Source: Nannobrachium achirus
Lineage: Eukaryota; Chordata; Actinopteri; Myctophiformes; Myctophidae
NCBI GenBank assembly: GCA_963921795.1
Contig: OY997643.1
Coordinates: 72,594,164-72,658,163 of the forward strand
Reading direction: 5' to 3'
Length of the DNA: 64,000 bases
Positions within the stretch are counted from its first letter, which is position 1. Every line of letters starts with the position of its first letter. Position numbers and translations under genes: made by a program. The notes beneath the pieces are model-generated. The model had not been told where the DNA came from, did no database searches, and saw nothing but the letters and a program-made list of their open reading frames with translations. This document shows, in pieces, positions 21,546-64,000 of this stretch.

Positions 21546-21810
21546 GGCTGAAACGACAACACAAAACAAGTCCTGGGAACTTGTTTCCATTGTGGTCCTA
21601 TACAGTAGAGCAGGGGTTTTCAAAGTGGGTGACGGGGCACCCTGGGGTGACGGGGCACCCTGGGGTGCCGCGACGGCAGTCCAGGGGTGCCGCGAGATAA
21701 TTTGATAATATTTGGAATTCATTTGAAAAAAATATTTATCATTTTAAACTTGAAGTACAACGTTATTTTCAGTCAGTTCTAACCACATCTAACCAAATCT
21801 CAACGTTTTC

Positions 21811-33000: not shown

Positions 33001-33924
33001 TCCTTTTTCACCAACCAGCTTTAACCTGCCCCCCCCCCCCCCCCTTCTCTCTCTCTCTCTCTCTCAGGAGACACTGGAGAAAAACCTTTTCACTGTAAAG
33101 ATTGTGACAAGAGTTTCAGTGACTTATATAATCTGAAGAGACACCTGCGTACCCACACCGGAGAAAAACCTTTTCACTGTGAACATTGTGACAAGAGTTT
33201 CAGTGACTTATCTAACCTGAAAACCCACCAGTTTGTTCACACCGGAGAAAAACCTTTTCACTGTGAACATTGTGACAAGAGTTTCAATCAGTCATTTACT
33301 CTGAAAACCCACCAGCGTCTCCACACTGGAGAAAAACCTTTTAACTGTAAACATTGTGACAAGAGTTTCAATCAGTTATCTCACTTGAAAAGCCACCAGC
33401 GTGTTCACACTGGAGAAAAACCTTTTCACTGTAAACATTGTGACAAGAGTTTCAGTGATTCATCTACCCTGAAGACCCACACACGTGTTCACACTGGAGA
33501 AAAACCTTTTCACTGTAAACATTGTGATAAGAGTTTCAATGTCTTATCTACCCTGAAGAGACACCAGGGAGTTCACACTGGAGAAAAACCTTTTCACTGT
33601 AAACATTGTGACAAGAGTTTCAGTGTGTCATCTACCCTGAGGAAACACGAGCGTGTTCACACTGGAGAAAAACCTTTTCACTGTAAACATTGTGACAAGA
33701 GTTTCAGTGTGTCATCTACCCTGAAGAGCCACCAGCGTGTTCACACTGGAGAAAAACCTTTTCCCTGTAAACATTGTGACAAGAGTTTCAGTGAGTCATC
33801 TAATCTGAGGAACCACCAGCGTGTTCACACTGGAGAAAAACCTTTTCCCTGTGAACATTGTGACAAGAGTTTCAATCAGTCATCTAACTTGAAGACACAC
33901 CAAGGTGTCCACAGAAAAACCTAA
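30006..33924 (+). CDS. C2H2 zinc-finger protein with acidic EPPHIKEEQ repeats, 10 fingers (unit 2)
   Basis: Duplicate of the gene at 12965-17001, with the same exon plan: 29974-30075, 31531-32064 and 33068-33924, and the same splice dinucleotides and phases. The predicted product is 486 aa: short N-terminus (MNSPDSARAISIKQEEPVD, with Val where unit 1 has Glu), eight acidic repeats, an acidic Ser/Glu region and 10 fingers. Relative to unit 1 it lacks one acidic repeat and the 7th finger. Finger 5 changes its first contact residue from Val to Asp, and the last finger is rebuilt (QSTK to QSNT contacts, ending HRKT). Role and location are inferred as for the unit 1 gene. Both frames are open, so both copies may be expressed. 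An upstream exon is equally unresolved. Confidence 0.85.
30076..31530 (+). other. Intron 1 of the unit 2 gene
   Basis: Almost base-for-base the same as 13035-14489. The paired TGACGTCA sites lie at 30943-30950 and 30959-30966. There is no coding content. Confidence 0.65.
31602..31889 (+). repeat. Eight in-frame 36-bp coding repeats (EEPEPPHIKEEQ)
   Basis: Unit 4 is the EEQEPPHIKEEQ variant, which is unit 5 in the other gene. The size change therefore lies at least partly in the units before the variant. All eight keep the IKEE core. Confidence 0.95.
32065..33067 (+). other. Intron 2 of the unit 2 gene
   Basis: Near-identical to 15060-16060, including the C tract plus (TC)n before the acceptor. 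Small changes cluster at about 32808-32890 (a TTCTTTGCAG duplication and TCTACGGTG versus TCTTGGGTG). No gene is seen. Confidence 0.6.
33068..33924 (+). other. Zinc-finger exon, 10 C2H2 fingers
   Basis: Contact residues (-1,2,3,6) of fingers 1-10 are DYNR, DSNT, QFTT, QSHS, DSTT, VSTR, VSTR→absent duplicate, then VSTK, VSTS, ESNN and QSNT; that is, one of the paired VSTR fingers of unit 1 is missing. The last finger differs from its unit 1 counterpart at about nine bases within ~100 bp, far above the rate in the neighbouring 3' sequence. Confidence 0.9.
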
Positions 33925-39138: not shown

Positions 39139-39680
39139 GTGTAGGGTATCTTGTACAGCAGGCCCATTGTGATACCATACGTGGACCCCACAGTCAAAGT
39201 GGCTCTTGCTAGAGTCTTTTGTGTATTTTTACTGACCAGCGGGGCGATCCTCTGTAAAAAAAAGATTTTTTTTCTTCCTTTTTTCATTATCATTATTCAG
39301 TGTTGATTTCGTCGACAAACTATGACGTGTTTTTTTTTCCACAGACGAAAACGAAATAAAAATGAAATAAAAACTGCTGTGATGACTAAAACTAAGACTG
39401 AACATATAAACAATGTCGTCAGCAAAATAAAAACTACACTAAAACATTACAGTTTACAGTTTAGGCATTTAGCAGACGCTTTTAATCCAAAGCGATTTAC
39501 AAGCGGTAGCTTGGGAAATGGAAGGCTCCTAGTTCAAACCATGGCTCCCCCAGAGTTGGTGTTGAAGTGTCCTTATATATATATATATAATTCTATATGT
39601 AGCCCTGTTATTATTTTGGGTTAATAAGAAGAGACATTATTTGAAATGCTGCTATTTTGAAAGATATACTGTAACAGTTA
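39139..39680. other. Unit 2 tail and stub of a third unit
   Basis: 39139-39591 repeats the MITE remnant, SINE/LINE-tail module (about 39460-39510) and (TA)n of unit 1. 39592-39680 (TCTATATGTAGCCCTG to CTGTAACAGTTA) is the start of a third unit, cut off where unrelated sequence begins. No gene. Confidence 0.85.
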
Positions 39681-39785
39681 TGTATGCGATAAGGTCTTGC
39701 TGCGCGGTCATTACGGCTTATATGGACACGACGGGGTGATAATTCCCCGAGGCGGAGCCGAGGGGAATTATCAGCCCGAAGTGTG
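39681..39785. mobile_element. Transposon-like edge of the satellite
   Basis: GGTGATAATTCCCC and GGGGAATTATCA are inverted around GAGGCGGAGCCGA, then CCCGAAGTGTGTAATGGATTATG leads without a break into the first satellite monomer. The layout suggests the monomer was amplified from within or beside this element. The family is not assigned. Confidence 0.45.
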
Positions 39786-42700
39786 TAATGGATTATGTGT
39801 AATGGATTATGGTAATATTTGTCGAATTTATTATAAATTATTGGCACTGTAAAACAGGTTGGGAATATTTTTAGAGGTACTTAGGTACATCATGAACAAG
39901 GTGATATAGTTGTTTTATGGTAACAAACTTCTTAATTTTTATCAGATTTTAAACTTTTTGCTGTATAGCGAATGGATGGTATTATTTGTCGAATTTATTA
40001 TACTTTATTGGCACAGTAAAACAGGTTGGGAATATTTTTAGAGGTACTTAGGTACATCATGAACAAGGTGACATAGTTGTTTTATGGTAACAAACTTCTT
40101 AATTTTTATCTGATTTTATACTATTTGCTGTATAGCGAATGGATGGTATTATTTGTCGAATTTATTATAAATTATTGGCACAGTAAAACAGGTTGGGAAT
40201 ATTTTTAGAGGTACTTAGGTACATCATGAACAAGGTGACATAGTTGTTTTATGGTAACAAACCTTCCTAATTTTTATCTGATTTTATACTATTTGCTGTA
40301 TAGCGAATGGATGGTATTATTTGTCGAATTTATTATAAATTATTGGCACAGTAAAACAGGTTGGGAATATTTTTAGAGGTACTTAGGTACATCATGAACA
40401 AGGTGATATAGTTGTTTTATGGTAACAAACCTTCCTAATTTTTATCTGATTTTATACTATTTGCTGTATAGCGGATGGATTATGTTAATATTTGTAGAAT
40501 TTATTATAAATTATTGGCACAGTTAAACAGGTCGGGAATATTTTTAGAGGTACTTAGGTACATAATGAACAAGGGGATATAGTTGTTTTATGGTAACAAA
40601 CTTCTTAATTTTTATCTGATTTTATACTATTTGCTGTATAGCGAATGGATTATGGTAATATTTGTCGAATTTATTATAAATTATTGGCACTGTAAAACAG
40701 GTTGGGAATATTTTTAGAGGTACTTAGGTACATCATGAACAAGGTGATATAGTTGTTTTATGGTAACAAACCTTCTTAATTTTTATCTGATTTTATACTA
40801 TTTGCTGTTTAGCGAATGGATTATGGTAATATTTGTCGAATTTATTATAAATTATTGGCACTGTAAAACAGGTTGGGAATATTTTTAGAGGTACTTAGGT
40901 ACATCATGAACAAGGTGATATAGTTGTTTTATGGTAACAAACTTCTTAATTTTTATCAGATTTTAAACTTTTTGCTGTATAGCGAATGGATGGTAATATT
41001 TGTCGAATTTATTATACTTTATTGGCACAGTAAAACAGGTTGGGAATACTTTTTAGAGGTACTTAGGTACATCATGAACAAGGGGATATAGTTGTTTTAT
41101 GGTAACAAATCTTCTTAATTTTCATCAGATTTAATACTTTTTGCTGTATAGCGAATGGATGGTAATATTTGTCGAATTTATTATAATTTATTGGCACAGT
41201 AAAACAGGTTGGGAATATTTTTTAGAGGTACTTAGGTACATCATGAAGAAGGGGATATAGTTGTTTAATGGTAACAAATCTTCTTAATTTTTATCAGATT
41301 TTAAACTTTTTGATGTATAGCGAATGGATGGTAATATTTGTCGAATTTATTATAATTTATTGGCACAGTAAAACAGGTTGGGAATACTTTTTAGAGGTAC
41401 TTAGGTACATCATGAACAAGGGGATATAGTTGTTTTATGGTAACAAACCTTCTTAATTTGTATCTGATTTTATACTATTTGCTGTATAGCGAATGGATTA
41501 TGGTAATATTTGTAGAATTTATTATAAATTATTGGCACAGTTAAACAAGTTGGGAATATTTTTAGAGTTACTTAGGTACATCATGAACAAGGTGATATAG
41601 TTGTTTTATGGTAACAAACCTTCCTAATTTTTATCTGATTTTATACTATTTGCTGTATAGCGAATGGATGGTATTATTTGTCGAATTTATTATAAATTAT
41701 TGGCACAGTAAAACAGGTTGGGAATATTTTTAGAGGTACTTAGGTACATCATGAACAAGGTGACATAGTTGTTTTATGGTAACAAACTTCTTAATTTTTA
41801 TCTGATTTTATACTATTTGCTGTATAGCGAATGGATGGTATTATTTGTCGAATTTATTATAAATTATTGGCACAGTAAAACAGGTTTGGAATATTTTTAG
41901 AGGTACTTAGGTACATCATGAACAAGGTGATATAGTTGTTTTATGGTAACAAACCTTCCTAATTTTTATCTGATTTTATACTATTTGCTGTATAGCGGAT
42001 GGATTATGTTAATATTTGTAGAATTTATTATAAATTATTGGCACAGTTAAACAGGTCGGGAATATTTTTAGAGGTACTTAGGTACATCATGAACAAGGGG
42101 ATATAGTTGTTTTATGGTAACAAACTTCTTAATTTTTATCTGATTTTATACTATTTGCTGTATAGCGAATGGATTATGGTAATATTTGTAGAATTTATTA
42201 TAAATTATTGGCACTGTAAAACAGGTTGGGAATATTTTTAGAGGTACTTAGGTACATCATGAACAAGGTGATATAGTTGTTTTATGGTAACAAACCTTCC
42301 TAATTTTTATCTGATTTTATACTATTTGCTGTATAGCGGATGGATTATGTTAATATTTGTAGAATTTATTATAAATTATTGGCACAGTTAAACAGGTCGG
42401 GAATATTTTTAGAGGTACTTAGGTACATAATGAACAAGGGGATATAGTTGTTTTATGGTAACAAACTTCTTAATTTTTATCTGATTTTATACTATTTGCT
42501 GTATAGCGAATGGATTATGGTAATATTTGTCGAATTTATTATAAATTATTGGCACTGTAAAACAGGTTGGGAATATTTTTAGAGGTACTTAGGTACATCA
42601 TGAACAAGGTGATATAGTTGTTTTATGGTAACAAACCTTCTTAATTTTTATCTGATTTTATACTATTTGCTGTTTAGCGAATGGATTATGGTAATATTTG

Positions 42701-45700
42701 TCGAATTTATTATAAATTATTGGCACTGTAAAACAGGTTGGGAATATTTTTAGAGGTACTTAGGTACATCATGAACAAGGTGATATAGTTGTTTTATGGT
42801 AACAAATCTTCTTAATTTTCATCAGATTTAATACTTTTTGCTGTATAGCGAATGGATGGTAATATTTGTCGAATTTATTATAATTTATTGGCACAGTAAA
42901 ACAGGTTGGGAATATTTTTTAGAGGTACTTAGGTACATCATGAAGAAGGGGATATAGTTGTTTAATGGTAACAAATCTTCTTAATTTTTATCAGATTTTA
43001 AACTTTTTGATGTATAGCGAATGGATGGTAATATTTGTCGAATTTATTATAATTTATTGGCACAGTAAAACAGGTTGGGAATACTTTTTAGAGGTACTTA
43101 GGTACATCATGAACAAGGGGATATAGTTGTTTTATGGTAACAAACCTTCTTAATTTGTATCTGATTTTATACTATTTGCTGTATAGCGAATGGATTATGG
43201 TAATATTTGTAGAATTTATTATAAATTATTGGCACAGTTAAACAAGTTGGGAATATTTTTAGAGTTACTTAGGTACATCATGAACAAGGTGATATAGTTG
43301 TTTTATGGTAACAAACCTTCCTAATTTTTATCTGATTTTATACTATTTGCTGTATAGCGAATGGATGGTATTATTTGTCGAATTTATTATAAATTATTGG
43401 CACAGTAAAACAGGTTGGGAATATTTTTAGAGGTACTTAGGTACATCATGAACAAGGTGACATAGTTGTTTTATGGTAACAAACTTCTTAATTTTTATCT
43501 GATTTTATACTATTTGCTGTATAGCGAATGGATGGTATTATTTGTCGAATTTATTATAAATTATTGGCACAGTAAAACAGGTTTGGAATATTTTTAGAGG
43601 TACTTAGGTACATCATGAACAAGGTGATATAGTTGTTTTATGGTAACAAACCTTCCTAATTTTTATCTGATTTTATACTATTTGCTGTATAGCGGATGGA
43701 TTATGTTAATATTTGTAGAATTTATTATAAATTATTGGCACAGTTAAACAGGTCGGGAATATTTTTTGAGGTACTTAGGTACATCATGAACAAGGGGATA
43801 TAGTTGTTTTATGGTAACAAACTTCTTAATTTTTATCTGATTTTATACTATTTGCTGTATAGCGAATGGATTATGGTAATATTTGTAGAATTTATTATAA
43901 ATTATTGGCACTGTAAAACAGGTTGGGAATATTTTTAGAGGTACTTAGGTACATCATGAACAAGGTGATATAGTTGTTTTATGGTAACAAACCTTCTTAA
44001 TTTTTATCTGATTTTATACTATTTGCTGTTTAGCGAATGGATTATGGTAATATTTGTCGAATTTATTATAAATTATTGGCACTGTAAAACAGGTTGGGAA
44101 TATTTTTAGAGGTACTTAGGTACATCATGAACAAGGTGATATAGTTGTTTTATGGTAACAAACCTTCTTAATTTTTATCTGATTTTATACTATTTGCTGT
44201 TTAGCGAATGGATTATGGTAATATTTGTCGAATTTATTATAAATTATTGGCACTGTAAAACAGGTTGGGAATATTTTTAGAGGTACTTAGGTACATCATG
44301 AACAAGGGGATATAGTTGTTTTATGGTAACAAACTTCTTAATTTTTATCTGATTTTATACTATTTGCTGTATAGCGAATGGATTATGGTAATATTTGTAG
44401 AATTTATTATAAATTATTGGCACTGTAAAACAGGTTGGGAATATTTTTAGAGGTACTTAGGTACATCATGAACAAGGTGATATAGTTGTTTTATGGTAAC
44501 AAACCTTCTTAATTTTTATCTGATTTTATACTATTTGCTGTTTAGCGAATGGATTATGGTAATATTTGTCGAATTTATTATAAATTATTGGCACTGTAAA
44601 ACAGGTTGGGAATATTTTTAGAGGTACTTAGGTACATCATGAACAAGGTGATATAGTTGTTTTATGGTAACAAACTTCTTAATTTTTATCAGATTTTAAA
44701 CTTTTTGCTGTATAGCGAATGGATGGTATTATTTGTCGAATTTATTATACTTTATTGGCACAGTAAAACAGGTTGGGAATATTTTTAGAGGTACTTAGGT
44801 ACATCATGAACAAGGTGACATAGTTGTTTTATGGTAACAAACTTCTTAATTTTTATCTGATTTTATACTATTTGCTGTATAGCGAATGGATGGTATTATT
44901 TGTCGAATTTATTATAAATTATTGGCACAGTAAAACAGGTTGGGAATATTTTTAGAGGTACTTAGGTACATCATGAACAAGGTGACATAGTTGTTTTATG
45001 GTAACAAAACTTCCTAATTTTTATCTGATTTTATACTATTTGCTGTATAGCGAATGGATGGTATTATTTGTCGAATTTATTATAAATTATTGGCACAGTA
45101 AAACAGGTTGGGAATATTTTTAGAGGTACTTAGGTACATCATGAACAAGGTGATATAGTTGTTTTATGGTAACAAACCTTCCTAATTTTTATCTGATTTT
45201 ATACTATTTGCTGTATAGCGGATGGATTATGTTAATATTTGTAGAATTTATTCTAAATTATTGGCACAGTTAAACAGGTCGGGAATATTTTTAGAGGTAC
45301 TTAGGTACATCATGAACAAGGGGATATAGTTGTTTTATGGTAACAAACTTCTTAATTTTTATCTGATTTTATACTATTTGCTGTATAGCGAATGGATTAT
45401 GGTAATATTTGTCGAATTTATTATAAATTATTGGCACTGTAAAACAGGTTGGGAATATTTTTAGAGGTACTTAGGTACATCATGAACAAGGTGATATAGT
45501 TGTTTTATGGTAACAAACCTTCTTAATTTTTATCTGATTTTATACTATTTGCTGTTTAGCGAATGGATTATGGTAATATTTGTCGAATTTATTATAAATT
45601 ATTGGCACTGTAAAACAGGTTGGGAATATTTTTAGAGGTACTTAGGTACATCATGAACAAGGTGATATAGTTGTTTTATGGTAACAAACTTCTTAATTTT

Positions 45701-48700
45701 TATCAGATTTTAAACTTTTTGCTGTATAGCGAATGGATGGTAATATTTGTCGAATTTATTATACTTTATTGGCACAGTAAAACAGGTTGGGAATACTTTT
45801 TAGAGGTACTTAGGTACATCATGAACAAGGGGATATAGTTGTTTTATGGTAACAAATCTTCTTAATTTTCATCAGATTTAATACTTTTTGCTGTATAGCG
45901 AATGGATGGTAATATTTGTCGAATTTATTATAATTTATTGGCACAGTAAAACAGGTTGGGAATATTTTTTAGAGGTACTTAGGTACATCATGAAGAAGGG
46001 GATATAGTTGTTTAATGGTAACAAATCTTCTTAATTTTTATCAGATTTTAAACTTTTTGATGTATAGCGAATGGATGGTAATATTTGTCGAATTTATTAT
46101 AATTTATTGGCACAGTAAAACAGGTTGGGAATACTTTTTAGAGGTACTTAGGTACATCATGAACAAGGGGATATAGTTGTTTTATGGTAACAAACCTTCT
46201 TAATTTGTATCTGATTTTATACTATTTGCTGTATAGCGAATGGATTATGGTAATATTTGTAGAATTTATTATAAATTATTGGCACAGTTAAACAAGTTGG
46301 GAATATTTTTAGAGTTACTTAGGTACATCATGAACAAGGTGATATAGTTGTTTTATGGTAACAAACCTTCCTAATTTTTATCTGATTTTATACTATTTGC
46401 TGTATAGCGAATGGATGGTATTATTTGTCGAATTTATTATAAATTATTGGCACAGTAAAACAGGTTGGGAATATTTTTAGAGGTACTTAGGTACATCATG
46501 AACAAGGTGACATAGTTGTTTTATGGTAACAAACTTCTTAATTTTTATCTGATTTTATACTATTTGCTGTATAGCGAATGGATGGTATTATTTGTCGAAT
46601 TTATTATAAATTATTGGCACAGTAAAACAGGTTGGGAATATTTTTAGAGGTACTTAGGTACATCATGAACAAGGTGACATAGTTGTTTTATGGTAACAAA
46701 CCTTCCTAATTTTTATCTGATTTTATACTATTTGCTGTATAGCGAATGGATGGTATTATTTGTCGAATTTATTATAAATTATTGGCACAGTAAAACAGGT
46801 TTGGAATATTTTTAGAGGTACTTAGGTACATCATGAACAAGGTGATATAGTTGTTTTATGGTAACAAACCTTCCTAATTTTTATCTGATTTTATACTATT
46901 TGCTGTATAGCGGATGGATTATGTTAATATTTGTAGAATTTATTATAAATTATTGGCACAGTTAAACAGGTCGGGAATATTTTTAGAGGTACTTAGGTAC
47001 ATCATGAACAAGGGGATATAGTTGTTTTATGGTAACAAACTTCTTAATTTTTATCTGATTTTATACTATTTGCTGTATAGCGAATGGATTATGGTAATAT
47101 TTGTAGAATTTATTATAAATTATTGGCACTGTAAAACAGGTTGGGAATATTTTTAGAGGTACTTAGGTACATCATGAACAAGGTGATATAGTTGTTTTAT
47201 GGTAACAAAACTTCTTAATTTTTATCTGATTTTATACTATTTGCTGTTTAGCGAATGGATTATGGTAATATTTGTCGAATTTATTATAAATTATTGGCAC
47301 TGTAAAACAGGTTGGGAATATTTTTAGAGGTACTTAGGTACATCATGAACAAGGTGATATAGTTGTTTTATGGTAACAAACCTTCCTAATTTTTATCTGA
47401 TTTTATACTATTTGCTGTATAGCGGATGGATTATGTTAATATTTGTAGAATTTATTATAAATTATTGGCACAGTTAAACAGGTCGGGAATATTTTTAGAG
47501 GTACTTAGGTACATAATGAACAAGGGGATATAGTTGTTTTATGGTAACAAACTTCTTAATTTTTATCTGATTTTATACTATTTGCTGTATAGCGAATGGA
47601 TTATGGTAATATTTGTCGAATTTATTATAAATTATTGGCACTGTAAAACAGGTTGGGAATATTTTTAGAGGTACTTAGGTACATCATGAACAAGGTGATA
47701 TAGTTGTTTTATGGTAACAAACCTTCTTAATTTTTATCTGATTTTATACTATTTGCTGTTTAGCGAATGGATTATGGTAATATTTGTCGAATTTATTATA
47801 AATTATTGGCACTGTAAAACAGGTTGGGAATATTTTTAGAGGTACTTAGGTACATCATGAACAAGGTGATATAGTTGTTTTATGGTAACAAATCTTCTTA
47901 ATTTTCATCAGATTTAATACTTTTTGCTGTATAGCGAATGGATGGTAATATTTGTCGAATTTATTATAATTTATTGGCACAGTAAAACAGGTTGGGAATA
48001 TTTTTTAGAGGTACTTAGGTACATCATGAAGAAGGGGATATAGTTGTTTAATGGTAACAAATCTTCTTAATTTTTATCAGATTTTAAACTTTTTGATGTA
48101 TAGCGAATGGATGGTAATATTTGTCGAATTTATTATAATTTATTGGCACAGTAAAACAGGTTGGGAATACTTTTTAGAGGTACTTAGGTACATCATGAAC
48201 AAGGGGATATAGTTGTTTTATGGTAACAAACCTTCTTAATTTGTATCTGATTTTATACTATTTGCTGTATAGCGAATGGATTATGGTAATATTTGTAGAA
48301 TTTATTATAAATTATTGGCACAGTTAAACAAGTTGGGAATATTTTTAGAGTTACTTAGGTACATCATGAACAAGGTGATATAGTTGTTTTATGGTAACAA
48401 ACCTTCCTAATTTTTATCTGATTTTATACTATTTGCTGTATAGCGAATGGATGGTATTATTTGTCGAATTTATTATAAATTATTGGCACAGTAAAACAGG
48501 TTGGGAATATTTTTAGAGGTACTTAGGTACATCATGAACAAGGTGACATAGTTGTTTTATGGTAACAAACTTCTTAATTTTTATCTGATTTTATACTATT
48601 TGCTGTATAGCGAATGGATGGTATTATTTGTCGAATTTATTATAAATTATTGGCACAGTAAAACAGGTTTGGAATATTTTTAGAGGTACTTAGGTACATC

Positions 48701-51700
48701 ATGAACAAGGTGATATAGTTGTTTTATGGTAACAAACCTTCCTAATTTTTATCTGATTTTATACTATTTGCTGTATAGCGGATGGATTATGTTAATATTT
48801 GTAGAATTTATTATAAATTATTGGCACAGTTAAACAGGTCGGGAATATTTTTTGAGGTACTTAGGTACATCATGAACAAGGGGATATAGTTGTTTTATGG
48901 TAACAAACTTCTTAATTTTTATCTGATTTTATACTATTTGCTGTATAGCGAATGGATTATGGTAATATTTGTAGAATTTATTATAAATTATTGGCACTGT
49001 AAAACAGGTTGGGAATATTTTTAGAGGTACTTAGGTACATCATGAACAAGGTGATATAGTTGTTTTATGGTAACAAACCTTCTTAATTTTTATCTGATTT
49101 TATACTATTTGCTGTTTAGCGAATGGATTATGGTAATATTTGTCGAATTTATTATAAATTATTGGCACTGTAAAACAGGTTGGGAATATTTTTAGAGGTA
49201 CTTAGGTACATCATGAACAAGGTGATATAGTTGTTTTATGGTAACAAACCTTCTTAATTTTTATCTGATTTTATACTATTTGCTGTTTAGCGAATGGATT
49301 ATGGTAATATTTGTCGAATTTATTATAAATTATTGGCACTGTAAAACAGGTTGGGAATATTTTTAGAGGTACTTAGGTACATCATGAACAAGGGGATATA
49401 GTTGTTTTATGGTAACAAACTTCTTAATTTTTATCTGATTTTATACTATTTGCTGTATAGCGAATGGATTATGGTAATATTTGTAGAATTTATTATAAAT
49501 TATTGGCACTGTAAAACAGGTTGGGAATATTTTTAGAGGTACTTAGGTACATCATGAACAAGGTGATATAGTTGTTTTATGGTAACAAACCTTCTTAATT
49601 TTTATCTGATTTTATACTATTTGCTGTTTAGCGAATGGATTATGGTAATATTTGTCGAATTTATTATAAATTATTGGCACTGTAAAACAGGTTGGGAATA
49701 TTTTTAGAGGTACTTAGGTACATCATGAACAAGGTGATATAGTTGTTTTATGGTAACAAACTTCTTAATTTTTATCAGATTTTAAACTTTTTGCTGTATA
49801 GCGAATGGATGGTATTATTTGTCGAATTTATTATACTTTATTGGCACAGTAAAACAGGTTGGGAATATTTTTAGAGGTACTTAGGTACATCATGAACAAG
49901 GTGACATAGTTGTTTTATGGTAACAAACTTCTTAATTTTTATCTGATTTTATACTATTTGCTGTATAGCGAATGGATGGTATTATTTGTCGAATTTATTA
50001 TAAATTATTGGCACAGTAAAACAGGTTGGGAATATTTTTAGAGGTACTTAGGTACATCATGAACAAGGTGACATAGTTGTTTTATGGTAACAAAACTTCC
50101 TAATTTTTATCTGATTTTATACTATTTGCTGTATAGCGAATGGATGGTATTATTTGTCGAATTTATTATAAATTATTGGCACAGTAAAACAGGTTGGGAA
50201 TATTTTTAGAGGTACTTAGGTACATCATGAACAAGGTGATATAGTTGTTTTATGGTAACAAACCTTCCTAATTTTTATCTGATTTTATACTATTTGCTGT
50301 ATAGCGGATGGATTATGTTAATATTTGTAGAATTTATTCTAAATTATTGGCACAGTTAAACAGGTCGGGAATATTTTTAGAGGTACTTAGGTACATCATG
50401 AACAAGGGGATATAGTTGTTTTATGGTAACAAACTTCTTAATTTTTATCTGATTTTATACTATTTGCTGTATAGCGAATGGATTATGGTAATATTTGTCG
50501 AATTTATTATAAATTATTGGCACTGTAAAACAGGTTGGGAATATTTTTAGAGGTACTTAGGTACATCATGAACAAGGTGATATAGTTGTTTTATGGTAAC
50601 AAACCTTCTTAATTTTTATCTGATTTTATACTATTTGCTGTTTAGCGAATGGATTATGGTAATATTTGTCGAATTTATTATAAATTATTGGCACTGTAAA
50701 ACAGGTTGGGAATATTTTTAGAGGTACTTAGGTACATCATGAACAAGGTGATATAGTTGTTTTATGGTAACAAACTTCTTAATTTTTATCAGATTTTAAA
50801 CTTTTTGCTGTATAGCGAATGGATGGTAATATTTGTCGAATTTATTATACTTTATTGGCACAGTAAAACAGGTTGGGAATACTTTTTAGAGGTACTTAGG
50901 TACATCATGAACAAGGGGATATAGTTGTTTTATGGTAACAAATCTTCTTAATTTTCATCAGATTTAATACTTTTTGCTGTATAGCGAATGGATGGTAATA
51001 TTTGTCGAATTTATTATAATTTATTGGCACAGTAAAACAGGTTGGGAATATTTTTTAGAGGTACTTAGGTACATCATGAAGAAGGGGATATAGTTGTTTA
51101 ATGGTAACAAATCTTCTTAATTTTTATCAGATTTTAAACTTTTTGATGTATAGCGAATGGATGGTAATATTTGTCGAATTTATTATAATTTATTGGCACA
51201 GTAAAACAGGTTGGGAATACTTTTTAGAGGTACTTAGGTACATCATGAACAAGGGGATATAGTTGTTTTATGGTAACAAACCTTCTTAATTTGTATCTGA
51301 TTTTATACTATTTGCTGTATAGCGAATGGATTATGGTAATATTTGTAGAATTTATTATAAATTATTGGCACAGTTAAACAAGTTGGGAATATTTTTAGAG
51401 TTACTTAGGTACATCATGAACAAGGTGATATAGTTGTTTTATGGTAACAAACCTTCCTAATTTTTATCTGATTTTATACTATTTGCTGTATAGCGAATGG
51501 ATGGTATTATTTGTCGAATTTATTATAAATTATTGGCACAGTAAAACAGGTTGGGAATATTTTTAGAGGTACTTAGGTACATCATGAACAAGGTGACATA
51601 GTTGTTTTATGGTAACAAACTTCTTAATTTTTATCTGATTTTATACTATTTGCTGTATAGCGAATGGATGGTATTATTTGTCGAATTTATTATAAATTAT

Positions 51701-52440
51701 TGGCACAGTAAAACAGGTTGGGAATATTTTTAGAGGTACTTAGGTACATCATGAACAAGGTGACATAGTTGTTTTATGGTAACAAACCTTCCTAATTTTT
51801 ATCTGATTTTATACTATTTGCTGTATAGCGAATGGATGGTATTATTTGTCGAATTTATTATAAATTATTGGCACAGTAAAACAGGTTTGGAATATTTTTA
51901 GAGGTACTTAGGTACATCATGAACAAGGTGATATAGTTGTTTTATGGTAACAAACCTTCCTAATTTTTATCTGATTTTATACTATTTGCTGTATAGCGGA
52001 TGGATTATGTTAATATTTGTAGAATTTATTATAAATTATTGGCACAGTTAAACAGGTCGGGAATATTTTTAGAGGTACTTAGGTACATCATGAACAAGGG
52101 GATATAGTTGTTTTATGGTAACAAACTTCTTAATTTTTATCTGATTTTATACTATTTGCTGTATAGCGAATGGATTATGGTAATATTTGTAGAATTTATT
52201 ATAAATTATTGGCACTGTAAAACAGGTTGGGAATATTTTTAGAGGTACTTAGGTACATCATGAACAAGGTGATATAGTTGTTTTATGGTAACAAAACTTC
52301 TTAATTTTTATCTGATTTTATACTATTTGCTGTTTAGCGAATGGATTATGGTAATATTTGTCGAATTTATTATAAATTATTGGCACTGTAAAACAGGTTG
52401 GGAATATTTTTAGAGGTACTTAGGTACATCATGAACAAGG
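39786..52440. repeat. Higher-order repeat regime A, 5086 bp (30 monomers)
   Basis: Rare markers repeat at exactly 5086 bp: the GAAGAAGGGG monomer at 42938 and 48024, and at 45988 and 51074; a TTTTTTGAG variant at 43761 and 48847; and TTCTAAATTA at 45251 and 50337. The left part (39786 to about 42.7 kb) aligns at 4747 bp instead, two monomers short, so it is a shortened copy. Confidence 0.88.
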
Positions 52441-55400
52441 TGATATAGTTGTTTTATGGTAACAAACTTCTTAATTTTTATCAGATTTTAAACTTTTTGC
52501 TGTATAGCGAATGGATGGTATTATTTGTCGAATTTATTATACTTTATTGGCACAGTAAAACAGGTTGGGAATATTTTTAGAGGTACTTAGGTACATCATG
52601 AACAAGGTGACATAGTTGTTTTATGGTAACAAACTTCTTAATTTTTATCTGATTTTATACTATTTGCTGTATAGCGAATGGATGGTATTATTTGTCGAAT
52701 TTATTATAAATTATTGGCACAGTAAAACAGGTTGGGAATATTTTTAGAGGTACTTAGGTACATCATGAACAAGGTGACATAGTTGTTTTATGGTAACAAA
52801 CTTCTTAATTTTTATCTGATTTTATACTATTTGCTGTATAGCGAATGGATGGTATTATTTGTCGAATTTATTATAAATTATTGGCACAGTAAAACAGGTT
52901 GGGAATATTTTTAGAGGTACTTAGGTACATCATGAACAAGGTGACATAGTTGTTTTATGGTAACAAACCTTCCTAATTTTTATCTGATTTTATACTATTT
53001 GCTGTATAGCGAATGGATGGTATTATTTGTCGAATTTATTATAAATTATTGGCACAGTAAAACAGGTTTGGAATATTTTTAGAGGTACTTAGGTACATCA
53101 TGAACAAGGTGATATAGTTGTTTTATGGTAACAAACCTTCCTAATTTTTATCTGATTTTATACTATTTGCTGTATAGCGGATGGATTATGTTAATATTTG
53201 TAGAATTTATTATAAATTATTGGCACAGTTAAACAGGTCGGGAATATTTTTAGAGGTACTTAGGTACATCATGAACAAGGGGATATAGTTGTTTTATGGT
53301 AACAAACTTCTTAATTTTTATCTGATTTTATACTATTTGCTGTATAGCGAATGGATTATGGTAATATTTGTAGAATTTATTATAAATTATTGGCACTGTA
53401 AAACAGGTTGGGAATATTTTTAGAGGTACTTAGGTACATCATGAACAAGGTGATATAGTTGTTTTATGGTAACAAAACTTCTTAATTTGTATCTGATTTT
53501 ATACTATTTGCTGTTTAGCGAATGGATTATGGTAATATTTGTCGAATTTATTATAAATTATTGGCACTGTAAAACAGGTTGGGAATATTTTTAGAGGTAC
53601 TTAGGTACATCATGAACAAGGTGATATAGTTGTTTTATGGTAACAAACTTCTTAATTTTTATCAGATTTTAAACTTTTTGCTGTATAGCGAATGGATGGT
53701 ATTATTTGTCGAATTTATTATACTTTATTGGCACAGTAAAACAGGTTGGGAATATTTTTAGAGGTACTTAGGTACATCATGAACAAGGTGACATAGTTGT
53801 TTTATGGTAACAAACTTCTTAATTTTTATCTGATTTTATACTATTTGCTGTATAGCGAATGGATGGTATTATTTGTCGAATTTATTATAAATTATTGGCA
53901 CAGTAAAACAGGTTGGGAATATTTTTAGAGGTACTTAGGTACATCATGAACAAGGTGACATAGTTGTTTTATGGTAACAAAACTTCCTAATTTTTATCTG
54001 ATTTTATACTATTTGCTGTATAGCGAATGGATGGTATTATTTGTCGAATTTATTATAAATTATTGGCACAGTAAAACAGGTTGGGAATATTTTTAGAGGT
54101 ACTTAGGTACATCATGAACAAGGTGATATAGTTGTTTTATGGTAACAAACCTTCCTAATTTTTATCTGATTTTATACTATTTGCTGTATAGCGGATGGAT
54201 TATGTTAATATTTGTAGAATTTATTATAAATTATTGGCACAGTTAAACAGGTCGGGAATATTTTTAGAGGTACTTAGGTACATCATGAACAAGGTGATAT
54301 AGTTGTTTTATGGTAACAAACCTTCCTAATTTTTATCTGATTTTATACTATTTGCTGTATAGCGAATGGATGGTATTATTTGTCGAATTTATTATAAATT
54401 ATTGGCACAGTAAAACAGGTTGGGAATATTTTTAGAGGTACTTAGGTACATCATGAACAAGGTGACATAGTTGTTTTATGGTAACAAACTTCTTAATTTT
54501 TATCTGATTTTATACTATTTGCTGTATAGCGAATGGATGGTATTATTTGTCGAATTTATTATAAATTATTGGCACAGTAAAACAGGTTGGGAATATTTTT
54601 AGAGGTACTTAGGTACATCATGAACAAGGTGACATAGTTGTTTTATGGTAACAAACCTTCCTAATTTTTATCTGATTTTATACTATTTGCTGTATAGCGA
54701 ATGGATGGTATTATTTGTCGAATTTATTATAAATTATTGGCACAGTAAAACAGGTTTGGAATATTTTTAGAGGTACTTAGGTACATCATGAACAAGGTGA
54801 TATAGTTGTTTTATGGTAACAAACCTTCCTAATTTTTATCTGATTTTATACTATTTGCTGTATAGCGGATGGATTATGTTAATATTTGTAGAATTTATTA
54901 TAAATTATTGGCACAGTTAAACAGGTCGGGAATATTTTTAGAGGTACTTAGGTACATCATGAACAAGGGGATATAGTTGTTTTATGGTAACAAACTTCTT
55001 AATTTTTATCTGATTTTATACTATTTGCTGTATAGCGAATGGATTATGGTAATATTTGTAGAATTTATTATAAATTATTGGCACTGTAAAACAGGTTGGG
55101 AATATTTTTAGAGGTACTTAGGTACATCATGAACAAGGTGATATAGTTGTTTTATGGTAACAAAACTTCTTAATTTTTATCTGATTTTATACTATTTGCT
55201 GTTTAGCGAATGGATTATGGTAATATTTGTCGAATTTATTATAAATTATTGGCACTGTAAAACAGGTTGGGAATATTTTTAGAGGTACTTAGGTACATCA
55301 TGAACAAGGTGATATAGTTGTTTTATGGTAACAAACTTCTTAATTTTTATCAGATTTTAAACTTTTTGCTGTATAGCGAATGGATGGTATTATTTGTCGA

Positions 55401-58400
55401 ATTTATTATACTTTATTGGCACAGTAAAACAGGTTGGGAATATTTTTAGAGGTACTTAGGTACATCATGAACAAGGTGACATAGTTGTTTTATGGTAACA
55501 AACTTCTTAATTTTTATCTGATTTTATACTATTTGCTGTATAGCGAATGGATGGTATTATTTGTCGAATTTATTATAAATTATTGGCACAGTAAAACAGG
55601 TTGGGAATATTTTTAGAGGTACTTAGGTACATCATGAACAAGGTGACATAGTTGTTTTATGGTAACAAACTTCTTAATTTTTATCTGATTTTATACTATT
55701 TGCTGTATAGCGAATGGATGGTATTATTTGTCGAATTTATTATAAATTATTGGCACAGTAAAACAGGTTGGGAATATTTTTAGAGGTACTTAGGTACATC
55801 ATGAACAAGGTGACATAGTTGTTTTATGGTAACAAACCTTCCTAATTTTTATCTGATTTTATACTATTTGCTGTATAGCGAATGGATGGTATTATTTGTC
55901 GAATTTATTATAAATTATTGGCACAGTAAAACAGGTTTGGAATATTTTTAGAGGTACTTAGGTACATCATGAACAAGGTGATATAGTTGTTTTATGGTAA
56001 CAAACCTTCCTAATTTTTATCTGATTTTATACTATTTGCTGTATAGCGGATGGATTATGTTAATATTTGTAGAATTTATTATAAATTATTGGCACAGTTA
56101 AACAGGTCGGGAATATTTTTAGAGGTACTTAGGTACATCATGAACAAGGGGATATAGTTGTTTTATGGTAACAAACTTCTTAATTTTTATCTGATTTTAT
56201 ACTATTTGCTGTATAGCGAATGGATTATGGTAATATTTGTAGAATTTATTATAAATTATTGGCACTGTAAAACAGGTTGGGAATATTTTTAGAGGTACTT
56301 AGGTACATCATGAACAAGGTGATATAGTTGTTTTATGGTAACAAAACTTCTTAATTTTTATCTGATTTTATACTATTTGCTGTTTAGCGAATGGATTATG
56401 GTAATATTTGTCGAATTTATTATAAATTATTGGCACTGTAAAACAGGTTGGGAATATTTTTAGAGGTACTTAGGTACATCATGAACAAGGTGATATAGTT
56501 GTTTTATGGTAACAAACTTCTTAATTTTTATCAGATTTTAAACTTTTTGCTGTATAGCGAATGGATGGTATTATTTGTCGAATTTATTATACTTTATTGG
56601 CACAGTAAAACAGGTTGGGAATATTTTTAGAGGTACTTAGGTACATCATGAACAAGGTGACATAGTTGTTTTATGGTAACAAACTTCTTAATTTTTATCT
56701 GATTTTATACTATTTGCTGTATAGCGAATGGATGGTATTATTTGTCGAATTTATTATAAATTATTGGCACAGTAAAACAGGTTGGGAATATTTTTAGAGG
56801 TACTTAGGTACATCATGAACAAGGTGACATAGTTGTTTTATGGTAACAAAACTTCCTAATTTTTATCTGATTTTATACTATTTGCTGTATAGCGAATGGA
56901 TGGTATTATTTGTCGAATTTATTATAAATTATTGGCACAGTAAAACAGGTTGGGAATATTTTTAGAGGTACTTAGGTACATCATGAACAAGGTGATATAG
57001 TTGTTTTATGGTAACAAACCTTCCTAATTTTTATCTGATTTTATACTATTTGCTGTATAGCGGATGGATTATGTTAATATTTGTAGAATTTATTATAAAT
57101 TATTGGCACAGTTAAACAGGTCGGGAATATTTTTAGAGGTACTTAGGTACATCATGAACAAGGTGATATAGTTGTTTTATGGTAACAAACCTTCCTAATT
57201 TTTATCTGATTTTATACTATTTGCTGTATAGCGAATGGATGGTATTATTTGTCGAATTTATTATAAATTATTGGCACAGTAAAACAGGTTGGGAATATTT
57301 TTAGAGGTACTTAGGTACATCATGAACAAGGTGACATAGTTGTTTTATGGTAACAAACTTCTTAATTTTTATCTGATTTTATACTATTTGCTGTATAGCG
57401 AATGGATGGTATTATTTGTCGAATTTATTATAAATTATTGGCACAGTAAAACAGGTTGGGAATATTTTTAGAGGTACTTAGGTACATCATGAACAAGGTG
57501 ACATAGTTGTTTTATGGTAACAAACCTTCCTAATTTTTATCTGATTTTATACTATTTGCTGTATAGCGAATGGATGGTATTATTTGTCGAATTTATTATA
57601 AATTATTGGCACAGTAAAACAGGTTTGGAATATTTTTAGAGGTACTTAGGTACATCATGAACAAGGTGATATAGTTGTTTTATGGTAACAAACCTTCCTA
57701 ATTTTTATCTGATTTTATACTATTTGCTGTATAGCGGATGGATTATGTTAATATTTGTAGAATTTATTATAAATTATTGGCACAGTTAAACAGGTCGGGA
57801 ATATTTTTAGAGGTACTTAGGTACATCATGAACAAGGGGATATAGTTGTTTTATGGTAACAAACTTCTTAATTTTTATCTGATTTTATACTATTTGCTGT
57901 ATAGCGAATGGATTATGGTAATATTTGTAGAATTTATTATAAATTATTGGCACTGTAAAACAGGTTGGGAATATTTTTAGAGGTACTTAGGTACATCATG
58001 AACAAGGTGATATAGTTGTTTTATGGTAACAAACCTTCTTAATTTTTATCTGATTTTATACTATTTGCTGTTTAGCGAATGGATTATGGTAATATTTGTC
58101 GAATTTATTATAAATTATTGGCACTGTAAAACAGGTTGGGAATATTTTTAGAGGTACTTAGGTACATCATGAACAAGGTGATATAGTTGTTTTATGGTAA
58201 CAAACTTCTTAATTTTTATCAGATTTTAAACTTTTTGCTGTATAGCGAATGGATGGTATTATTTGTCGAATTTATTATACTTTATTGGCACAGTAAAACA
58301 GGTTGGGAATATTTTTAGAGGTACTTAGGTACATCATGAACAAGGTGACATAGTTGTTTTATGGTAACAAACTTCTTAATTTTTATCTGATTTTATACTA

Positions 58401-59564
58401 TTTGCTGTATAGCGAATGGATGGTATTATTTGTCGAATTTATTATAAATTATTGGCACAGTAAAACAGGTTGGGAATATTTTTAGAGGTACTTAGGTACA
58501 TCATGAACAAGGTGACATAGTTGTTTTATGGTAACAAAACTTCCTAATTTTTATCTGATTTTATACTATTTGCTGTATAGCGAATGGATGGTATTATTTG
58601 TCGAATTTATTATAAATTATTGGCACAGTAAAACAGGTTGGGAATATTTTTAGAGGTACTTAGGTACATCATGAACAAGGTGATATAGTTGTTTTATGGT
58701 AACAAACCTTCCTAATTTTTATCTGATTTTATACTATTTGCTGTATAGCGGATGGATTATGTTAATATTTGTAGAATTTATTATAAATTATTGGCACAGT
58801 TAAACAGGTCGGGAATATTTTTAGAGGTACTTAGGTACATCATGAACAAGGGGATATAGTTGTTTTATGGTAACAAACTTCTTAATTTTTATCTGATTTT
58901 ATACTATTTGCTGTATAGCGAATGGATTATGGTAATATTTGTCGAATTTATTATAAATTATTGGCACTGTAAAACAGGTTGGGAATATTTTTAGAGGTAC
59001 TTAGGTACATCATGAACAAGGTGATATAGTTGTTTTATGGTAACAAACCTTCTTAATTTTTATCTGATTTTATACTATTTGCTGTTTAGCGAATGGATTA
59101 TGGTAATATTTGTCGAATTTATTATAAATGATTGGCACTGTAAAACAGGTTGGGAATATTTTTAGAGGTACTTAGGTACATCATGAACAAGGTGATATAG
59201 TTGTTTTATGGTAACAAACTTCTTAATTTTTATCAGATTTTAAACTTTTTGCTGTATAGCGAATGGATGGTATTATTTGTCAAATTTATTATACTTTATT
59301 GGCACAGTAAAACAGGTTGGGAATATTTTTAGAGGTACTTAGGTACATCATGAACAAGGTGATATAGTTGTTTTATGGTAACAAACTTCTTAATTTTTAT
59401 CTGATTTTATGCTATTTGCTGTATAGCGGATGGATTATGTTAATATTTGTAGAATTTATTATAAATTATTGGCACAGTAAAACAGGTTGGGAATATTTTT
59501 AGAGGTACTTAGGTACATCATGAACAAGGGGATATAGTTGTTTTATGGTAACAAACTTCTTAAT
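52441..59564. repeat. Higher-order repeat regime B, 2869 bp (17 monomers)
   Basis: The CTTTATTGGCACAG variant recurs at 52541, 53722, 55410, 56591 and 58279, alternating 1181 and 1688 bp (7 and 10 monomers), a 2869-bp period. The GAAGAAGGGG monomer of regime A is absent after 51074. The switch occurs near 52441, where sequence stops matching the 5086-bp partner. Confidence 0.85.
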
Positions 59565-60938
59565 TAAGTGTGCCTGCCATGCAATGCAATGGCAAAACAC
59601 TTATTGTAATCCGCCATACTTAAGTCAGTAAGTCATGTTCTGGCAAATTTCGGCACGTAATAAGTGCCGCACGATTTACGCCACCGCCGCAATATATACA
59701 TCAAAACGTGCGGCTCGGCCGGGAATGGGGTGCTATTACTTTTCTTTCCGATCCGCGTTACCATTGCGACGTAATTCGCAAAAAACGACGCCAAAAAACC
59801 CCATTCACTTAGAATGGGGGAAATTTCGGCACGTAATAACTGCCGCACGATTTACGCCACCCCCGCAATATACACATCAAAATGTGCGGCTCGGCCGGGA
59901 ATGGGGTGCTATTACTTTTCTTTCCGATCCGCGATACGATTGCGATGTAATTCGCAAAAAACGACGCCCAAAAACCCCATTGACTTAGAATGGGGGACTC
60001 CGAAAAAAACCCAGAAACTTTGGCGCCACATAACTCTGCCATACTTTTGCCTAGCAACGTGATTTAAACTTTAAAATGCACACACAACTTTGGTCTTTTT
60101 CCGGCCAATAGGGATGAGCTGTAATTGATTAAGCCCCGCCCCCTCTGTAACAGGAAGTGTCCTTCGCCAAACAGGAAGTGCCTCTATAACTCATGAACTG
60201 TTTGTCGTACAGACTCGCGGCTGGTGTCATAATTCTTTTTTTTTCTCAATTTTTTTTTTTCAAAATTTTTTTCTCAATTTTTTTTTTCTCAAAAACATTT
60301 TTTTTCTCAATTTTTTTTTTCTCAAAATTTTTTTTTCTCAAAATTTTTTTTTGTCAAAAATGTTTTTTTCTCAAAAAAAATTTTTTCTCAAATTTTTTTT
60401 TCTCAAAATTTTTTTTTCTCAAAATTTTTTTTTCTCAAAAAATTTTTTTTTCTCAAATTTTTTTTTTCTCAAATTTTTTTTTCTCAAAAATTTTTTTTTT
60501 CAAAATTTTTTTTCTCAAAAATGTTTTTTTTCTCAAATTTTTTTTTTCTCAAAAAAATTTTTTTTCTCAATTTTTTTTTCTCAAATTTTTTTTTCTCAAT
60601 TTTTTTTTCTCAAAAAATTTTTTTTTCTCAAAATTTTTTTTCTCAAAAAACTTTTTTTTTCTCACAACAATTTTTTTCTCACAAAACAATTTTTTCTCAA
60701 AAAAACTGTTGTTAAAGTGCGACCCGTGATAACGGCCAAAAATGCGCCAAAACGCCACTAATTAGTCGAAATGGCTGTGGGTGGTGTCATATGAAGAACC
60801 ATAATGTTAAAGCTTATGCAAAAAATGCTAATGTTAAAAAATGTAACGCTAATGCTAACACCAACCGCTACACAAGGTTGCACAGACTTAGCGAGCTGCA
60901 GGCACACTTAAAATTTCTTGGAAATTTTCTTTTCTAGT
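59565..60938 (+). mobile_element. Helitron2/Helentron-like element, family A, inside the satellite
   Basis: Left TAAGTGTGCCTGC (59565), inverse GCAGGCACACTTA (60898-60910), a perfect AAAATTTC-TTG-GAAATTTT hairpin and CTAGT at 60934-60938. Removing it restores the monomer sequence CTTCTTAATTTTTATCTG exactly. It is missing about 300 bp found in the unit copies, before GTGGGTGGTGTCAT. It contains the tandem ~175-bp unit (59647-60000) and a long T-rich tract. No transposition genes. Confidence 0.9.
60235..60705. repeat. T-rich tract inside the satellite Helitron
   Basis: The longest of three TTTTTTTTCTCAAA tracts. Open frames rich in Phe, Ser, Lys and Gln here are low-complexity artefacts. Confidence 0.92.
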
Positions 60939-63900
60939 TTTTATCTGATTTTATACTATTTGCTGTATAGCGAATGGATTATGGTAATATTTGTCGAATT
61001 TATTATAAATTATTGGCACAGTAAAACAGGTTGGGAATATTTTTTAGAGGTACTTAGAGACATCATGAACAAGGTGATATAGTTTTTTTATAGTAACAAA
61101 TCTTCTTAATTTTTATCAGATTTTATACTTATTGCAGTATAGCGAATGGATTATGGTAATATTTGTCGAATTTATTATAAATTATTGGCACAGTAAAACA
61201 GGTTGGGAATATTTTTAGAGGTACTTAGGTACATCATGAACAAGGTGACATAGTTGTTTTATGGTAACAAAACTTCCTAATTTTTATCTGATTTTATACT
61301 ATTTGCTGTATAGCGAATGGATGGTATTATTTGTCGAATTTATTATAAATTATTGGCACAGTAAAACAGGTTGGGAATATTTTTAGAGGTACTTAGGTAC
61401 ATCATGAACAAGGTGATATAGTTGTTTTATGGTAACAAACCTTCCTAATTTTTATCTGATTTTATACTATTTGCTGTATAGCGGATGGATTATGTTAATA
61501 TTTGTAGAATTTATTATAAATTATTGGCACAGTTAAACAGGTCGGGAATATTTTTAGAGGTACTTAGGTACATCATGAACAAGGTGATATAGTTGTTTTA
61601 TGGTAACAAACCTTCCTAATTTTTATCTGATTTTATACTATTTGCTGTATAGCGAATGGATGGTATTATTTGTCGAATTTATTATAAATTATTGGCACAG
61701 TAAAACAGGTTGGGAATATTTTTAGAGGTACTTAGGTACATCATGAACAAGGTGACATAGTTGTTTTATGGTAACAAACTTCTTAATTTTTATCTGATTT
61801 TATACTATTTGCTGTATAGCGAATGGATGGTATTATTTGTCGAATTTATTATAAATTATTGGCACAGTAAAACAGGTTGGGAATATTTTTAGAGGTACTT
61901 AGGTACATCATGAACAAGGTGACATAGTTGTTTTATGGTAACAAACCTTCCTAATTTTTATCTGATTTTATACTATTTGCTGTATAGCGAATGGATGGTA
62001 TTATTTGTCGAATTTATTATAAATTATTGGCACAGTAAAACAGGTTTGGAATATTTTTAGAGGTACTTAGGTACATCATGAACAAGGTGATATAGTTGTT
62101 TTATGGTAACAAACCTTCCTAATTTTTATCTGATTTTATACTATTTGCTGTATAGCGGATGGATTATGTTAATATTTGTAGAATTTATTATAAATTATTG
62201 GCACAGTTAAACAGGTCGGGAATATTTTTAGAGGTACTTAGGTACATCATGAACAAGGGGATATAGTTGTTTTATGGTAACAAACTTCTTAATTTTTATC
62301 TGATTTTATACTATTTGCTGTATAGCGAATGGATTATGGTAATATTTGTAGAATTTATTATAAATTATTGGCACTGTAAAACAGGTTGGGAATATTTTTA
62401 GAGGTACTTAGGTACATCATGAACAAGGTGATATAGTTGTTTTATGGTAACAAACCTTCTTAATTTTTATCTGATTTTATACTATTTGCTGTTTAGCGAA
62501 TGGATTATGGTAATATTTGTCGAATTTATTATAAATTATTGGCACTGTAAAACAGGTTGGGAATATTTTTAGAGGTACTTAGGTACATCATGAACAAGGT
62601 GATATAGTTGTTTTATGGTAACAAACTTCTTAATTTTTATCAGATTTTAAACTTTTTGCTGTATAGCGAATGGATGGTATTATTTGTCGAATTTATTATA
62701 CTTTATTGGCACAGTAAAACAGGTTGGGAATATTTTTAGAGGTACTTAGGTACATCATGAACAAGGTGACATAGTTGTTTTATGGTAACAAACTTCTTAA
62801 TTTTTATCTGATTTTATACTATTTGCTGTATAGCGAATGGATGGTATTATTTGTCGAATTTATTATAAATTATTGGCACAGTAAAACAGGTTGGGAATAT
62901 TTTTAGAGGTACTTAGGTACATCATGAACAAGGTGACATAGTTGTTTTATGGTAACAAAACTTCCTAATTTTTATCTGATTTTATACTATTTGCTGTATA
63001 GCGAATGGATGGTATTATTTGTCGAATTTATTATAAATTATTGGCACAGTAAAACAGGTTGGGAATATTTTTAGAGGTACTTAGGTACATCATGAACAAG
63101 GTGATATAGTTGTTTTATGGTAACAAACCTTCCTAATTTTTATCTGATTTTATACTATTTGCTGTATAGCGGATGGATTATGTTAATATTTGTAGAATTT
63201 ATTATAAATTATTGGCACAGTTAAACAGGTCGGGAATATTTTTAGAGGTACTTAGGTACATCATGAACAAGGGGATATAGTTGTTTTATGGTAACAAACT
63301 TCTTAATTTTTATCTGATTTTATACTATTTGCTGTATAGCGAATGGATTATGGTAATATTTGTCGAATTTATTATAAATTATTGGCACTGTAAAACAGGT
63401 TGGGAATATTTTTAGAGGTACTTAGGTACATCATGAACAAGGTGATATAGTTGTTTTATGGTAACAAACCTTCTTAATTTTTATCTGATTTTATACTATT
63501 TGCTGTTTAGCGAATGGATTATGGTAATATTTGTCGAATTTATTATAAATGATTGGCACTGTAAAACAGGTTGGGAATATTTTTAGAGGTACTTAGGTAC
63601 ATCATGAACAAGGTGATATAGTTGTTTTATGGTAACAAACTTCTTAATTTTTATCAGATTTTAAACTTTTTGCTGTATAGCGAATGGATGGTATTATTTG
63701 TCAAATTTATTATACTTTATTGGCACAGTAAAACAGGTTGGGAATATTTTTAGAGGTACTTAGGTACATCATGAACAAGGTGATATAGTTGTTTTATGGT
63801 AACAAACTTCTTAATTTTTATCTGATTTTATGCTATTTGCTGTATAGCGGATGGATTATGTTAATATTTGTAGAATTTATTATAAATTATTGGCACAGTA

Positions 63901-64000
63901 AAACAGGTTGGGAATATTTTTAGAGGTACTTAGGTACATCATGAACAAGGGGATATAGTTGTTTTATGGTAACAAACTTCTTAATTTTTATCTGATTTTA
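60939..64000. repeat. Satellite array continues, running off the window
   Basis: About 18 monomers. The first one and a half (to about 61190) are the most divergent in the array (TTAGAGACATCATG, ATTGCAGTATAGCG). The rest matches 56.8-59.58 kb at an offset of exactly 4421 bp (markers 59126/63547, 59293/63714, 59410/63831). Confidence 0.95.

Follow-up and report, generated by a model that had tools for sequence, protein, structure and literature searches.

Tetris of Drosophila virilis, with its TIR-220 repeats, is a non-autonomous foldback element that carries tandem repeats of ~220 bp in its inverted arms around a variable middle domain without coding capacity, and its complete copies are flanked by target-site duplications of 8-9 bp. 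Its arrays, which reach 66 repeats, have grown inside the element, and unequal crossing-over is invoked for this growth in the available part of the report (PMC4079207). Galileo, a member of the P superfamily in Drosophila, has a known transposase and 7-bp target-site duplications; in the accessible sections of its description, solo-TIR copies and variable numbers of tandem repeats are reported, the F subfamily having 0-3 tandem repeats of ~210 bp per arm (PMC3573991). The centromere arrays of medaka, given as 20-345 kb in the part of that study available, are a different kind of array (PMC5705604).

The DNA considered here, called the window, is a stretch of 64,000 nucleotides from the fish Nannobrachium achirus (C6:72594164-72658163 of a 1.66-Gb assembly in 564 contigs). 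An earlier note described a satellite in its right part as two higher-order repeat regimes side by side and likened them to primate centromeres. The evidence does not bear that likeness out: the array consists of overlapping tandem block duplications within a transposon arm of ~24.6 kb, next to C2H2 zinc-finger units. With a probability of roughly 0.87, a giant foldback transposon, apparently non-autonomous, has this array as its right satellite arm, the arm has grown by recent block duplications, and the long periods are nascent higher-order units. The arm and the sequences adjoining it are as follows.

39679-39784, + strand: truncated palindromic MITE-like repeat, putative left deletion breakpoint
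39785-59565, + strand: 170-bp satellite, left block, read as the inner arm (right half) of the foldback element
59566-60939, + strand: 1374-bp insert, presumably Helentron/Helitron-like, with a 14-bp subterminal inverted repeat, a 3' hairpin and a CTAG end, recognised by eye
60940-64000, + strand: 170-bp satellite after the insert, with a boundary ambiguous by ~2 bases
64820-66968: outer arm, ending in the element terminus, after the 441-bp insertion that follows the array end at 64378

According to Tandem Repeats Finder, a single array (consensus 171 bp) occupies the window from 39801 onwards; wraparound alignment cuts it into 137 pieces; 135 of these are longer than 135 bp and represent 31 distinct sequences. 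The array had been thought to end at 59564, but it picks up again at ~60940 and stops at 64378 (L009:378), just beyond the window; the arm holds about 136 monomers. The insert that interrupts it, which we take to be Helentron-like, has at its 5' end TTAAGTGTGCCTGC, the reverse complement of GCAGGCACACTTAA near the 3' end, which is followed by the hairpin and CTAG; relatives lie at 27442-29002 and 10906-12343, within zinc-finger units. The 441-bp insertion between satellite and outer arm (L009:379-819, window 64379-64819) is flanked by a repeat of GGTTTATGGTAACC and is missing from the seven other arm ends compared.

Four stretches of the array are organised in multi-monomer blocks.

42191-52467, + strand: two copies of a 5086-bp (30-monomer) block, 0 mismatches over 5191 bp
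39799-44546, + strand: 30-mer block in a 28-monomer variant (99.2% at offset 4747 over 39793-42014)
51402-58538, + strand: 2.5 copies of a 2869-bp (17-monomer) block, 2 mismatches over 4268 bp, 1066 bp shared with the 30-mer block
56739-64000, + strand: two copies of a 3047-bp (18-monomer) block, exact except for the insert in copy 1; copy 2 reaches 64276

Both long periods reported before, of 5086 bp or 30 monomers and of 2869 bp or 17 monomers, are confirmed. At offset 5086, positions 42191-47381 match 47277-52467 without a mismatch (~2.0 copies, the first opening as the 28-monomer variant from 39799), and at offset 2869, positions 51402-55669 match 54271-58538 with two. Runs of identical monomers reach 29, at offset 30, whereas in 200 shuffles of the 135 pieces the longest run averages 2.6 and never exceeds 4; the order of the monomers is therefore far beyond chance and the 30-mer and 17-mer periods are real. 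A third unit of 3047 bp (18 monomers, about 2 copies), missing from the earlier note, is exact over 2827 bp before the insert at ~59566-60939 and over 290 bp after it. Because the 1.37-kb insert is found only in copy 1 of this unit, while copy 2 is uninterrupted, it is later than the duplication.

Copies of a block are much more alike than monomers are, as expected of higher-order repeats, differing by 0-2 mismatches against a median of nine differences between monomers. Homogenisation over many tandem copies, the other property of such repeats, is not seen, as the copy numbers are 2.0, 2.5 and about 2. The higher-order organisation claimed for the array thus stands in so far as the multi-monomer duplications resemble higher-order repeats, but not as two regimes with a switch point, the units being present in only 2-2.5 copies. 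A sharp switch had been placed near 52.44 kb, and the 5086-bp match does end at 52467; however, the 2869-bp match already starts at 51402, an overlap of 1066 bp, and what was taken for a switch is thus a duplication edge that falls within another duplication. Likewise, the statement that large multi-monomer units are known mainly from primates is probably too narrow, as papers on beetle satellites use the term higher-order repeats in the portions available.

Monomer classes, clustered at three differences, are partly shared across this edge. The claim that the same variants are used on both sides is correct for classes A-E, whereas F-K are confined to the left part, which uses A-K, and L and the single M-P occur only to the right of 52.34 kb, the latter close to the insert and at the end of the window. 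Several classes are mosaics of others, including the following.

42679-42849, + strand: chimeric monomer J, exact A/F, second copy at 47765
44206-44375, + strand: chimeric monomer K, exact A/D, second copy at 49292
54193-54363, + strand: chimeric monomer L, D-like on the 5' side and I-like on the 3' side (0 differences), repeated at 57062 and 61483

Exact two-parent chimeras make up 4 of the 14 classes compared over 35 variable columns (M and P, which are cut short, were left out): J (A/F), K (A/D), L (D/I) and D (L/K), each at least three differences from any single class. With column order shuffled in 200 trials the mean is 0.1 and the maximum 3, and with alleles shuffled within columns the mean is 0.005. 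The second 17-mer copy begins inside L, its first monomer, and L equals D before the duplication edge and I after it; the switch columns of L are no independent proof of that edge, as the same I/L differences underlie both. As D can also be composed from L and K, a derivation of L from D is not proved. The chimeric monomers show the pattern that in-register unequal exchange between distant monomers leaves, and slippage or template switching could give the same.

A growth mechanism of this kind would account for the array as a whole. Unequal exchange, or else strand slippage or template switching, probably took place between in-register monomers from several to 30 apart, and every such event would duplicate a whole block. 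The 30-, 17- and 18-mer blocks would then represent three recent events, one atop another, and the switch at 52.4 kb would be the edge of overlapping duplications, with no border between two mature satellite domains. Since the three near-identical or identical blocks can be read as successive events, the supposed regimes would be nascent higher-order units at two to three copies.

That the array belongs to a transposon is supported by the distribution of the element termini. A two-monomer query finds the satellite on C4, C6, C9, C10, C13, C16 and C20 among the best 15 of 223 candidates, and the outer segments of the fetched loci finish in a common terminus. The 30-bp terminus has 73 matches in the genome with at most two mismatches (37 forward, 36 reverse; control 0), and a 17-base terminal pattern likewise has 73 exact matches. 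Adjacent forward and reverse termini form 30 pairs, 7.3-111 kb apart, or 31 once C4 is added, with a median span of 17.8 kb and 30 of the 31 at 7-44 kb. The remaining pair (G000:C9:67747829-67859240), at 111 kb, is far above this median. Nested insertions or an autonomous copy may lie inside the longer pairs, namely this one and that of C16 (43.5 kb); a further long pair, on C8, spans 38.8 kb.

Two patterns that span the junction of satellite and outer arm occur 40 times genome-wide (21 + 19), and 30 of these lie within the 31 pairs, where 0.017 are expected by chance, all 30 in the predicted orientation. Twenty-nine are located 1.06-2.28 kb from the terminus and the last is shifted by an insertion of ~3.1 kb. 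At least one junction is present in 19 of the 31 pairs; of the 12 others, one was read in part, that on C12, and it has satellite. The ten junctions outside pairs are on C8, C10, C13, C16 and C18, where they have no complete pair around them.

A complete element reads, in order, terminus, 46-bp minisatellite, (in one subfamily) a GC-rich segment, satellite (-), core, satellite (+) and the mirror image of the outer parts, the whole flanked by an 8-bp target-site duplication. Several copies have as their core a GC-rich block of 0.9-1.5 kb; in others the core is short or absent. Mirror-image satellite arms, with a shared outer segment on each side, are found in C1, C4, C9, C13, C20 and two C10 copies, and satellite is present in both halves of each fully read pair (C1, C4, C9 and C20; 4/4). 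The C1 copy, selected on no other basis than its termini, is a foldback of 8246 bp whose 3147-bp arms are 98.8% identical and both hold arrays of the 46-bp minisatellite and of a 172-bp satellite. In the C12 pair, of which 7 kb were read, satellite (-) is followed by a core rich in GC, behind which ~25 bases of satellite (+) are recognisable by eye, and the arms of C16 are very unequal (3.3 kb of satellite against 85 bp). Exact 8-bp target-site duplications flank C20, C9 and C1. In C4, the fourth copy for which termini and flanks were read on both sides, the flanking 8-mers agree at 6 of 8 positions and the left terminal 26 bases are lost to a ~3.1-kb insertion. The element has the features by which foldback (long-TIR) elements are recognised: long inverted repeats that make up most of it, tandem repeats in the arms, a target-site duplication and an empty site, the last being paralogous and found for the right side of the window copy.

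No support was found for either of two transposase families as driver, for a role of the monomers in transposition or for an RNA-related origin. Genome matches exist for the KDZ and P-type transposases, but among the best candidates of the genome search none of 68 KDZ hits and none of 20 P-type (TNP-like_GBD) hits falls inside a terminal pair, a minority of the pairs having been read inside. Secondary transposase sites in the monomers are not indicated, as 142 of 200 shuffles align as well as the terminus does with the monomer, and 61 of 200 as well as it does with the minisatellite. The GC-rich core and the outer segments are reminiscent of an rDNA spacer, but Rfam gives no match at the gathering threshold to a known RNA in the window and nine loci.

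The copy in the window appears to be a solo right half. The terminus that closes it on the right lies at 66968 (C6:72661131), and no partner is found among the termini. On the left, the truncated palindromic repeat gives way to satellite at 39784/39785; this MITE-like repeat is dispersed and abundant (the best 40 of 586 candidates were scored) and measures ~148 bp in one other copy. A paralogous empty site is present in the spacer behind the next zinc-finger unit, where the target site has a single TCGTGTGC and the right flanks are 96% identical over 296 columns. The 532 bp to the left of the empty site are not found at the left border of the array, and elsewhere they recur in two other units with no more than the first 46-48 bases. 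These sequence features suggest that a deletion at the MITE removed the left arm and the core and spared the right half, although this loss is less than proved, because spacers between zinc-finger units vary anyway.

The surroundings are three tandem units, each roughly 16-19 kb long, followed by the beginning of a fourth (window ~4529-39691 and C6 rightward ~66969-82736), whose matching pieces are mostly 92-99% alike. The two units in the window carry C2H2 zinc-finger exons at 15964-16998 (11 zf-C2H2 stretches) and 33025-33921 (10 stretches), and near their border lies an A/T-rich minisatellite (21807-22640) with units of 12, 24 and 59 bp. Two weak, stop-bearing TNP-like_GBD (P-type) matches with an E-value of 4.8e-4 (C6:72700877-72701158 and C6:72709104-72709385) occur in opposite orientation about 40-48 kb to the right of the element terminus.

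Long arms of other copies are built in a similar way. Tandem block units of 3089 and 1372 bp (C9), 1026 and 856 bp (C10) and 1710 bp (C12) correspond to 18-, 8-, 6-, 5- and 10-mers, and as their size differs across copies, block duplication recurs in long arms. An exact repeat run of at least 600 bp at any offset is present in all six arms above 5 kb, one of which has 2500 N, and in one of ten arms below 4 kb; this cut-off was chosen post hoc and longer arms offer more chances. The two C10 left arms share a run and are thus not independent. Identical monomers in different copies account for 32 of the 207 distinct monomers, and in six of the seven two-armed copies, C9 being the exception, the nearest monomer is closer (median) in another element than in the sister arm, in a comparison for which the pool of monomers from other elements is the larger. 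Homogenisation of the two arms within one copy is therefore not claimed, while the prevalence of nearest monomers in other elements is compatible with growth before transposition or with exchange between copies.

The reading of the array as a transposon arm has to be weighed against three others. If this were a satellite of the centromere or its surroundings, made up of two mature higher-order domains next to each other as in alpha satellite, a monomer of ~170 bp and multi-monomer periods would be expected, as they are found here; however, the array measures merely ~24.6 kb, its units reach only 2-2.5 copies, its surroundings are duplicated zinc-finger units, and the satellite recurs at many loci and contigs in mirror-image arms that are bounded by transposon ends with target-site duplications. 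A centromeric origin is thus hardly tenable. It is also very improbable, if by a little less, that a free satellite, arranged in large inverted arrays, was merely invaded or flanked by the transposon. The 10 of 40 junctions outside terminal pairs would fit such a history, as would the finding that the monomer has no motif in common with the terminus above chance, but all 30 junctions within pairs face the termini in the same orientation, 29 at a distance of 1.06-2.28 kb, and both halves of all four fully read pairs (C1, C4, C9 and C20) contain the satellite.

Assembly deserves more consideration, as the block identity of 99.95-100% could stem from assembly error. The exact repeats of 5.1, 4.3 and 3.1 kb, with 0, 2 and 0 mismatches over 5191, 4268 and 3117 bp, would then be in part duplicated or mis-joined contigs, and the 2500 N in the left arm of one C10 copy are in keeping with this. 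On the other hand, the window is without N, only one of the two 18-mer copies has the 1.37-kb insert, chimeric monomers at and within the blocks exceed chance, and similar duplications of other sizes occur in other arms, which together make an artefact unlikely. Growth of a foldback arm by block duplication remains the preferred reading.

Should it be correct, the first steps of higher-order repeats become legible at this locus, as exact block duplications at two to three copies, chimeras of the exchange type and a later insertion that orders the events. The origin of higher-order repeats is usually inferred from mature centromeres, in which these first steps are erased. As the transposon that carries these arrays has ~31 paired copies, satellite growth may have been replicated separately at each site from one shared starting point; if the sites are indeed replicates, the rate and step size of block duplication could become directly measurable across insertion sites. 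A broader proposal, for which the odds are at present somewhat below even, is that a vertebrate transposon family with satellite arms seeds arrays at dozens of sites, each of which evolves its own higher-order structure in place via exchange within the long palindromic arms, and that higher-order repeats may start in this way outside centromeres, as independent replicates of a common ancestor.

In the higher-order repeats of alpha satellite in primate centromeres, blocks consist of many distinct monomers and the identity between blocks is far above that between neighbouring monomers. The fish array is similar in that blocks of many monomers are repeated at far higher identity than neighbours, but differs in that there are two to three copies per block, that the blocks overlap, and that the array is transposon-borne and of ~24.6 kb. 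A fish case of such an element is mentioned neither in the available parts of PMC12628747 and PMC6431247 nor, for a foldback element with satellite arms, in those titles and abstract openings of the open-licence literature that were surveyed. A Xenopus MITE with tandem repeats (Hikosaka and Kawahara) is, by its title, likewise a vertebrate element bearing tandem repeats. Compared with Galileo, as described in the accessible sections, the fish element generates 8-bp rather than 7-bp duplications, and its pairs contain none of the 20 P-type (TNP-like_GBD) hits listed. The closest known case is Tetris, which, as far as its available description goes, has in common with the fish element the non-autonomous foldback structure, tandem repeats in the arms, a variable middle domain, a similar length of the target-site duplication and an array growth for which unequal exchange is invoked, a likeness of structure. 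Relative to that description, the fish element has two tandem families (46 and 170 bp) in its arms, about 136 monomers in the arm of the window and pairs that in 30 of 31 cases span 7-44 kb (one spans 111 kb), and its multi-monomer blocks and chimeric monomers can be read.
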